Origin: Sulfurovum sp.
Lineage (GTDB): Bacteria > Campylobacterota > Campylobacteria > Campylobacterales > Sulfurovaceae
Assembly (NCBI GenBank): GCA_024763175.1
Contig: JANTGA010000002.1
Span: 1 to 53,282, forward strand
Direction: 5' to 3'
DNA: 53,282 bases
The position numbers and the translations under genes were made by a program. Below the pieces are notes generated by a model. The model did no database searches. It was given only the letters and a program-made list of their open reading frames with translations, and was not told the DNA's origin. Below, in pieces: positions 41,292-43,639 of this stretch (within the stretch, counting starts at the first letter, position 1; each line of letters starts with the position of its first letter).

Positions 41292-41309
41292 TTTGGGTAT
41301 CATTCGATC

Positions 41310-41636
41310 ATGAAGGAAATAGTAGACTATCTCAATGATCAACATATCATCTGCAAAAGTCTCAAAGAGGTGATGCCCAAAACGCTGGGGAGTCGCAAAA
41401 GGGTTGCACTCTATGTGGGGATCAATCTTAAAGGGTATTACTGCTCTGTCCTGTACATCGAAAAGAAGAGTCGTCTCCTTCGGAAGGAAGCAGGCGAACT
41501 CATAGCGCTCCATGAAAAGCTCGAAGCTTATCAGGATACAAAAATCCTGACACGCTATATCCGTATCAGGGCACCGCTCTGTTCTCGCGCCAAAGCGATG
41601 CTGGAAGAAAACGGCTGGAAGGTCTGGAACGAATAG
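41310..41636 (+). CDS. Hypothetical protein, 108 residues
   Basis: The protein (MKEIVDYLNDQHIICKSLKE...) is soluble, basic and has no signal peptide. The middle GSRKRVALYVGINLKGYYCS and the end LCSRAKAMLEENGWKVW look like alternating strands and helices. I do not recognise the family. It lies 18 bases after the rhodanese gene with a GAAGGAA just before the ATG. Codon use looks like that of its neighbours. Confidence 0.65.
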   Translation: MKEIVDYLNDQHIICKSLKEVMPKTLGSRKRVALYVGINLKGYYCSVLYIEKKSRLLRKEAGELIALHEKLEAYQDTKILTRYIRIRAPLCSRAKAMLEENGWKVWNE

Positions 41637-41671
41637 CCAAAAGAAAAGATGGTTTTTAAGTAGGAGATGTT

Positions 41672-41704
41672 ATGATTCAGGTCGAATATCAAATGATACA
41701 TTAA
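41672..41704 (+). other. Possible ten-residue leader peptide before the response regulator
   Basis: AGGAG at 41662-41666 and ATG at 41672 open a ten-codon frame (MIQVEYQMIH) that ends TAA at 41702-41704. The stop overlaps the AAAGGA that serves the response regulator. The regulator frame is +1 relative to this frame. The setup looks like translational coupling, or the remains of an earlier start; it may also be chance. Confidence 0.35.
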
Positions 41705-41714
41705 AGGATATATT

Positions 41715-42395
41715 ATTATAAAAGTACTCATTATTGAGGATGATCCGGAGCTTTCACTTATTCTCACCAACTATTTGACAAAATATGATATGGAAGTGGT
41801 CGGGGCAGAGGATCCCTATATCGGCTTGTCACTTTTGACACAACATGAGTTCGATCTAGTCATCCTGGATCTGACCCTTCCCGGGATGGATGGACTGGAG
41901 ATGATACCCAAGATCAGAGAGCACTCCAGCATACCGATCATCATCTCATCCGCACGCGATGATATCACTGACAAAGTCATCGGTTTAGAGCGTGGTGCAG
42001 ATGACTATATGCCAAAACCCTACGATCCCAGAGAGCTGGTGACACGCATCAAGACGATACTGCGCCGGACAAATACCGGTGGCAATGGAAAAGATAATAA
42101 CGAAGATATATTCAAAGTGGACACTGCATCGAGAACCATTATTTTCAAGGGGAAGATGCTGGATCTCACGGCTGCAGAATATGATGTGCTTTCGATGCTG
42201 GTCTCTCATAAAAATGGCTCCGTTTCCAGGGAACAGCTTCTCTATGAGAGCGAACATATCGATGATGGAAGTTCTGTCAAAAATATCGATGTGATCATTT
42301 CAAGAATTCGACATAAAATCGCCAAAATTGACAAGGATAATATCTATATCAAGCCAATTAGAGGAGTAGGGTACCTGCTGTCTACCAACCTATGA
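41715..42395 (+). CDS. OmpR-family response regulator, ArsR(HP)-like, apparent ATT start
   Basis: The receiver domain is complete only if translation begins near 41715: ATT ATA AAA GTA CTC gives (M)IKVLIIEDDPEL with the acidic pocket, phospho-acceptor Asp52 in VILDLTLPGMDGLEM, and a lysine in DYMPKPYDPRE. A winged-helix DNA-binding domain follows (LTAAEYDVLSMLVSHKNGSV, KNIDVIISRIRHKI, IRGVGYLL). There is no ATG, GTG or TTG between the in-frame TGA at 41694 and a TTG at 41775, which would cut off the acidic pocket. AAAGGA lies six bases before the ATT. The gene overlaps the kinase gene by four bases. The kinase resembles ArsS of Helicobacter. Confidence 0.85.
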   Translation: MIKVLIIEDDPELSLILTNYLTKYDMEVVGAEDPYIGLSLLTQHEFDLVILDLTLPGMDGLEMIPKIREHSSIPIIISSARDDITDKVIGLERGADDYMPKPYDPRELVTRIKTILRRTNTGGNGKDNNEDIFKVDTASRTIIFKGKMLDLTAAEYDVLSMLVSHKNGSVSREQLLYESEHIDDGSSVKNIDVIISRIRHKIAKIDKDNIYIKPIRGVGYLLSTNL

Positions 42396-43639
42396 AAAAC
42401 CTTTCTGTTACAACTTTTATTCACCTGCTTTTTACACTGGCAATAGGGATACTGATAGTGACTTTCCTCTTCTTTGTCTCTTGGGATAAAGATAGAAGAA
42501 AGATCGAGGAGATCAATCACTATAAGTTGATAGCCGATGCCTTTCTCTCCAATGTGCAGCTCAATCCAACAGAAGAAAAACTAAAAAAATTCTACAAAGA
42601 TTTTTCGGTCAAGCCCATATCTATGGAGATCGCAAAAGAGAAGATAACCAAACATGGCAAGACTGTCTTCGGGGGAAAATCGATCTATGGGCAAGTAAGA
42701 GTCTTTGAGATAGAGGGAAAACACTACATCTATGTGCAGCGACTCGGATACAATCTGATGCTCAAAGATGCCCGACCCAAAAATTATAATTTCGGAATCG
42801 CATCGGTAGTCGGTATCTCCCTGATCATATTGCTGCTGCTGCTCTATCTGGCTATTTTGAAAAAGCTCTATCCGCTCAAGCGTCTTCATCGAGAGATCGA
42901 ACAATTTGCACAGGGAGATCTGGATGTCAAAATCTCCTATAAATATAATGATGAGATTGGAAGAATCGCCAAAAGTTTTGATGAGGCGATCAAGCACATC
43001 AAGGAGTTGATCACTTCAAAAAACCTCTTCATGCGCAATATAATGCATGAACTCAAAACCCCGATCACCAAAGGGCGTATCGTGGTTGAGTCGATCGAGG
43101 ACGAGACCATCAAGGGGATACTGGTCCGTGCTTTTGAGAGGATGAATGAGCTCATCACAGAGCTGGCGCAGGTGGAGCGTGTCACAACCCGTAATTTCGA
43201 ACCTGTTATCGTCTCAACAACACTGAGGCATATTATTGACAAAAGCCAACATCTTCTGATGGCTGACAAAGGGAGGGTATTGGTAGAGATCGATAATTTT
43301 GTCATTCAAACCGATGAAATGCTCCTTGCACTTGCCATTAAAAATCTTCTTGACAATGGGATAAAGTACAGTAAAGAGCGCCAGGTCACAGTGCAAACGG
43401 CTGAGCGAAAAAGAATAGAAATCATTTCAAACGGTGAAGTGCTCAAGCATCCGCTTTCCTACTACACAGAACCCTTCTCACAAGAAGAGAAGCGCAGCAG
43501 CGGTTTTGGGCTGGGGCTCTATATCGTTCATAGTATTCTCGAAAAACTCGGATTTACTCTGGGATATTACCATAAGAATGGAAAGAATGTCTTTGAGATC
43601 GTGATGGAAGAAGAGAAGAGAGATTTCCAAAAAAGGTAG
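42392..43639 (+). CDS. ArsS-like sensor histidine kinase
   Basis: The 415-residue kinase has two membrane segments (about 8-30 and 135-157), a periplasmic sensor of some 100 residues between them, and a HAMP-like linker. The phospho-accepting His219 is in IMHELKTPITKGRIV. The ATPase motifs are ALAIKNLLDNGIKYS (N box) and SGFGLGLYIVHSILEK (G box). The HELKTPITKGR motif is typical of the ArsS family of Campylobacterota, which senses acid in Helicobacter. What is sensed here is unknown. It overlaps the regulator by ATGA. Confidence 0.93.
   Translation: MKNLSVTTFIHLLFTLAIGILIVTFLFFVSWDKDRRKIEEINHYKLIADAFLSNVQLNPTEEKLKKFYKDFSVKPISMEIAKEKITKHGKTVFGGKSIYGQVRVFEIEGKHYIYVQRLGYNLMLKDARPKNYNFGIASVVGISLIILLLLLYLAILKKLYPLKRLHREIEQFAQGDLDVKISYKYNDEIGRIAKSFDEAIKHIKELITSKNLFMRNIMHELKTPITKGRIVVESIEDETIKGILVRAFERMNELITELAQVERVTTRNFEPVIVSTTLRHIIDKSQHLLMADKGRVLVEIDNFVIQTDEMLLALAIKNLLDNGIKYSKERQVTVQTAERKRIEIISNGEVLKHPLSYYTEPFSQEEKRSSGFGLGLYIVHSILEKLGFTLGYYHKNGKNVFEIVMEEEKRDFQKR

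Follow-up and report, generated by a model that had tools for sequence, protein, structure and literature searches.

The gene for an OmpR/PhoB-type response regulator in the window, by which we mean the whole 53,282-nucleotide stretch of Sulfurovum sp. DNA analyzed here, very probably starts with an AUU codon at 41715, and the pattern seen across its relatives argues that this start has been kept by selection. On comparison with homologues, the position of the start, the conservation of its codon class (AUH, where H is A, C or U) and the coupling of that class to a strong Shine-Dalgarno (SD) sequence all emerge from the DNA.

The regulator gene and its reading frame

The features of the locus are as follows.

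41694..41696, + strand: TGA, in frame upstream of the regulator gene (read from the sequence)
41703..41708, + strand: Shine-Dalgarno sequence AAAGGA, 6 nt before the start; aligned spacing 4
41715..41717, + strand: ATT start codon (codon 1); AUH here in 75/148 homologues, with codon 2 non-AUH in L054, L123 and L170
41715..42395, + strand: OmpR/PhoB-type response regulator, 226 aa; Pfam Response_reg and Trans_reg_C; its partner is an ArsS-family kinase
41775..41777, + strand: TTG, the first canonical in-frame start, within the receiver domain; the gene caller's wrong choice
42392..42395, + strand: ATGA overlap of regulator stop and kinase start; same overlap in 45/75 AUH homologues; likely translational coupling
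42392..43639, + strand: sensor histidine kinase, ArsS family, ATG start; NF038389; HATPase_c, HAMP, HisKA

Read in triplets from 41694, the frame runs TGA TAC ATT AAA GGA TAT ATT ATT ATA AAA GTA CTC ATT ATT GAG GAT GAT. A first-pass annotation of this DNA had remarked that no ATG, GTG or TTG lies in frame between the TGA at 41694 and the TTG at 41775, that this TTG falls inside the receiver domain, and that AAAGGA stands six bases ahead of ATT 41715; all three hold in the sequence, and the TTG lies past the acidic pocket. It had also foreseen truncation by normal gene callers, and the program-made list indeed starts the regulator open reading frame (ORF) at TTG 41775, giving 206 aa from which strand beta-1 and the acidic residues are lost. 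Translated from 41715, by contrast, the protein has a full receiver domain (residues 4-113, matching profile positions 1-111 of 111 in Pfam), followed by an OmpR-type DNA-binding domain at residues 146-222 (Pfam).

The description of the regulator as ArsR-type in the same annotation gains indirect backing from the downstream kinase, which scores 410 bits against NF038389, the NCBIfam model of the ArsS family, for which the cutoff is 250. The gene order, an OmpR-type regulator and then an ArsS-family kinase, is that of ArsRS (HP0166/HP0165). Among the matches to the DNA-binding domain of the regulator is structure 2k4j, which we take to be Helicobacter pylori ArsR.

The start codon among homologues

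Homologues were collected from 60 related genomes, 80 named genome contigs (Sulfurovum sp. AR and, for the most part, metagenome assemblies of Sulfurovum and other Sulfurovaceae) and 150 genomes of the same order. Starts were read from the DNA, and removal of identical genes left 148 distinct homologues, all of the same order. The codon homologous to 41715 is AUH in 75 of these 148 (ATT in 48, ATC in 15, ATA in 12); among the remaining homologues, codon 1 is ATG in 46, GTG in 3 and TTG in 3, while ATG lies one codon on in 7, and 14 have a short N-terminal extension. AUH genes occupy most of the window's own family, Sulfurovaceae. In a second family (f8), all eight loci sampled have AUH, and three more families contribute one AUH locus each (L117, L123, L168). 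At 70 of the 75 AUH loci, no canonical codon is found in frame upstream before a stop is reached. Within one subclade (L032-L035, L094, L102, L112 and others, some titled Nitratifractor), a short N-terminal extension replaces the AUH start, with its ATG or GTG sitting 3-5 codons upstream.

The assembly that contains the window is a draft (154 contigs, 82% complete), and a single base change at 41717 or 41720 would create an ATG. One might therefore imagine a sequencing or assembly error, such that the codon is truly ATG or that an indel joins the gene to an upstream ATG. The conservation of AUH and SD across independently assembled genomes refutes this reading, to which we give almost no weight: 74 other distinct homologues share the AUH codon and the place of the SD, and their assemblies include single-contig genomes (L014, L118, L169, L171, L173, L176, L179). 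The AUU start proposed in the first-pass annotation thus stands up to comparison of the codon in relatives, and the sequencing error that it had named as a possible refutation falls.

Alternative starts

Codons 2-20 evolve as coding sequence, and the sequence upstream of codon 1 does not. Over all pairs of homologues, codons 2-10 show 9031 synonymous versus 2931 nonsynonymous differences; when the upstream sequence is read as codons, the corresponding numbers are 1089 and 25733. In-frame stops lie as near as two codons before codon 1 in AUH homologues. In three AUH homologues of different lineages, codon 2 is itself not AUH (ACA in L054, ACT in L170, AAT in L123), which fixes the start at codon 1.

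These three genes bear directly on the closest competitor, a start one codon later at ATA 41718 (MKVLIIEDD). Such a start is not without attraction, as M-K-[IV]-L opens many response regulators, codon 2 is AUH in 72 of the 75 genes, and some homologues have ATG there. However, ACA, ACT and AAT stand at that codon in L054, L170 and L123, and the homologues whose codon 1 is ATG begin with MIK. In addition, initiation at codon 2 would put the SD at an aligned spacing of 7-8 in all rows, compared with 4-5 from codon 1, whereas rows that do have ATG at codon 2 place their SD at an aligned 3-6 from it. The preceding ATT at 41712 could be considered in the same way, but it too is disfavored by the SD spacing, and there is no conservation at that codon. 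We regard a start at either neighboring codon as improbable.

It is very improbable that the functional protein begins at a canonical codon farther downstream, with the earlier codons serving as a leader. Every gene does have such a codon (TTG 41775 in the window, codon 5 or 6 in many homologues), and it is the one that gene callers pick. Nevertheless, the first canonical codon is at position 13 or later in 39 of the 75 genes, and the conserved SD would lie at least 18 nt away. Codons 2-10 are under strong amino acid constraint, and in the window the resulting protein would be without strand beta-1 and the acidic pocket. We note that callers restricted to ATG, GTG and TTG would remove 4-25 residues of the regulator throughout the clade, in many cases including the acidic pocket.

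Programmed frameshifting or readthrough might instead bring ribosomes in from a reading frame farther upstream, given that 40 of the 75 AUH loci have an upstream canonical codon in another frame with no stop before codon 1. No candidate exists at the other 35, and where one does, its frame, distance and sequence vary between species. Nor is the upstream region conserved as coding sequence, and in the window the sole ORF close by on that side (41672-41704) terminates ahead of the ATT. We consider entry of this kind very unlikely, and AUU 41715 remains the start that we adopt below.

The Shine-Dalgarno sequence

An SD of at least 5 bases at an aligned spacing of 4-5 precedes codon 1 in 75/75 AUH genes, compared with 10/73 canonical-start homologues. 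It reads AAGGA in 63 of the AUH genes, AAGGAG in 7, AGGAG in 4 and AAGGAGG in 1, with an aligned spacing from codon 1 of 4 in 60 and 5 in 15; in ATG homologues the spacing likewise peaks at 4. All 75 AUH genes agree without exception at SD bases -11 and -9 and at the first two positions of codon 1, and most positions from -20 to -13 carry less than 0.6 bit. Even inside the AUH clade, an SD within the same limits of length and spacing is found in only 1 of 10 AUG rows, although the Fisher values for this contrast ignore relatedness. The association between SD and AUH rests on about 6 independent contrasts, with 5-6 of 6 agreeing in direction (median p 0.06).

For the leader, folding of 41637-41755 was no more stable than that of shuffled sequences (z 0.2 to 0.6), and the predicted accessibility of the SD and start did not differ between AUH and ATG rows. 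Rfam gave no match within 41300-42000, and a promoter scan of the + strand just upstream of the regulator gave nothing convincing.

Start codons of other genes

Where the start of the kinase gene can be read at AUH loci, it is ATG in all but two (one GTG, one TTG). ATG is likewise the start of the other response regulators sampled from the genome of the window (L002-L006). For window genes that match an NCBIfam model strongly, a canonical start is present no later than where the model begins, the regulator being the exception. These controls are a small sample of genes rather than a genome-wide census. The infC genes of the order have a TTG start at 39 of 39 readable loci, as inferred from the first canonical codon.

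The infC start region (loci L136-L165 and L206-L215) reads TTG AGY/AAY..., so that IF3 of this order appears to begin with a conserved UUG, unlike the AUU, AUC or AUA of other bacteria. The infC gene of the window's own genome lies at about 3952-4500 of contig G000:C62, on the minus strand.

Evolution of the start codon

On a tree built without codons 1 and 2, the AUH start is clustered (8 changes, compared with a mean of 49.6 for shuffled labels). The clade containing both families probably had it from an early stage, with later switches to AUG or gains of an N-terminal extension on several occasions; the direction of change is only inferred, because the tree is unrooted and parts of it have weak support. 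Inside the AUH clade, codon 1 shows 18 third-base changes among U, C and A and 5 to or from G. Changes involving G thus account for 22% there versus 33% at fourfold sites of the same genes, a depletion that is not significant (p 0.18), and therefore selection against AUG as such is not supported by these data. Some lineages can do without AUH, since AUG is the start in 10 of the clade's 85 rows.

Most lineages that went over to AUG no longer have the strong SD at its tight spacing, which is what one would expect if the conserved property is weak initiation. From this pattern, selection appears to keep a weak total initiation rate and not AUU itself; AUH with a strong SD and AUG with a relaxed SD look like alternative routes to the same modest rate.

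A simpler reading would have the AUH start be real but merely tolerated, with SD strength setting expression and the third base drifting, and with neither regulation nor a selected low dosage. In keeping with this, the third base of codon 1 does change nearly as frequently as a fourfold site, and the lack of a significant G depletion points the same way. However, no AUH starts were seen among the control genes, and in tested cases an AUH start costs about 3-10 fold (PMC13009471). The SD is also invariant in AUH rows and relaxed in AUG rows, and such invariance implies that initiation here is under tight selection. On balance, we find mere tolerance unlikely, and continue with a selected weak start.

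A possible role in setting regulator dosage

We infer a mechanism in which the ordinary initiator tRNA (fMet-tRNA) would decode AUU 41715, pairing with the A and U while the mismatch at the third base is tolerated, and in which the strong, exactly placed AAAGGA would make up for the weak codon-anticodon pairing. IF3 discriminates against such starts, and so would hold the regulator at a low level. The kinase ATG overlaps the stop of the regulator, so the kinase would probably be held back by the weak start too. Low regulator dosage seems to us a rather likely purpose of the AUU start; that IF3 is part of the explanation has, in our judgment, about an even chance.

One can envision, tentatively, that the clade as a whole uses the start codon to set how much of a two-component system is made. 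AUU, AUC or AUA with an invariant SD and AUG with a relaxed SD would then be interchangeable ways of achieving one selected low rate, and the level of the regulator would track IF3 as well as the state of the translation machinery. We hold this fuller picture to be possible, though somewhat short of an even chance.

The first-pass annotation had drawn on infC and pcnB, where AUU starts limit or autoregulate synthesis. Limited synthesis is plausible here by analogy. Nothing points to autoregulation as in infC, since the product is a response regulator and no translation factor, and since infC in this order starts with UUG.

Relation to known non-AUG starts

Starts of this kind are already known from infC, pcnB, sigR and ccpN, and the pairing of a non-AUG start with a strong SD is not new in itself. 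The infC gene, encoding IF3, starts with AUU, AUC or AUA in Escherichia coli, Streptomyces and Staphylococcus aureus; these starts have long been kept, IF3 discriminates against them, and the gene is autoregulated through its own product. The regulator shares with infC a long-conserved AUH start. The two differ in that the infC product reads its own start, whereas the regulator acts on transcription.

A close parallel is sigR of Streptomyces, which has a GTC start and an SD of AGGAGGTG and is repressed by IF3 (PMC5472188). Its start is conserved (32 of 34 GTC, 2 GTT), its partner is translationally coupled, and the start sets regulator dosage; when it was changed to a canonical one, SigR was overproduced relative to its partner (PMC5472188). 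As in our case, a conserved noncanonical start with a strong SD opens the first gene of a signaling pair, and by analogy the response regulator and its kinase may likewise be a pair whose ratio matters. However, the codon family and the class of regulator differ, and IF3 repression is demonstrated for sigR and proposed for the regulator described here.

In Staphylococcus, ccpN (AUA) and cvfC1 (AUU) have an extended SD and give about 10-30% of the expression seen with AUG (PMC13009471). These too are regulator genes with a conserved AUH start. Their starts were mapped and measured, whereas the one at 41715 is computed only, but comes with drift among AUU, AUC and AUA and changes to AUG on the tree. 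A phosphorelay protein of Yersinia pestis, RcsD-Hpt, also uses AUU (PMC10191623), although at a start internal to a frameshifted gene, in contrast to the clade-wide primary start of the regulator. In E. coli pcnB, AUU limits synthesis (Binns and Masters 2002, as cited in PMC13009471); the start is alike, but the PcnB protein is unrelated to the regulator.

No earlier report of such a start in Sulfurovum, Sulfurimonas, RacR or ArsR was found in the open-access papers searched, which are not the full literature. Within that scope, a clade-wide AUH start in a two-component regulator appears to be unreported. This case stands out for how deeply the start is conserved, for its drift among AUU, AUC and AUA, for natural switches to AUG, and for a host gene that encodes a two-component response regulator. 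Few AUH starts have been verified in bacteria, and this one is kept in dozens of species of two families. It provides a ready evolutionary series for studying how codon strength and SD strength are balanced against each other by selection and, further, whether IF3 levels feed into two-component signaling.

Upstream gene context

Upstream of the AUH rows there is an htrA-like gene that directly abuts the regulator, a permease-like gene at a distance of 50-100 nt, or no long ORF on the same strand. Obligate coupling to an upstream gene was considered and rejected because this context varies so widely, and the start is thus independent of any one neighbor.

In the window, a mini-ORF (MIQVEYQMIH, 41672-41704, + strand) with its own AGGAG ends inside the SD region of the regulator; a scan of the upstream ORFs of homologues revealed no conserved counterpart. 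In several families (L007, L118, L166, L178), an HtrA/Do-type protease-like gene, so named from its sequence, abuts the regulator, and the two probably form an ancestral operon. Within Sulfurovaceae the gene upstream of the regulator varies, and the window has a different ORF in place of the protease-like gene.
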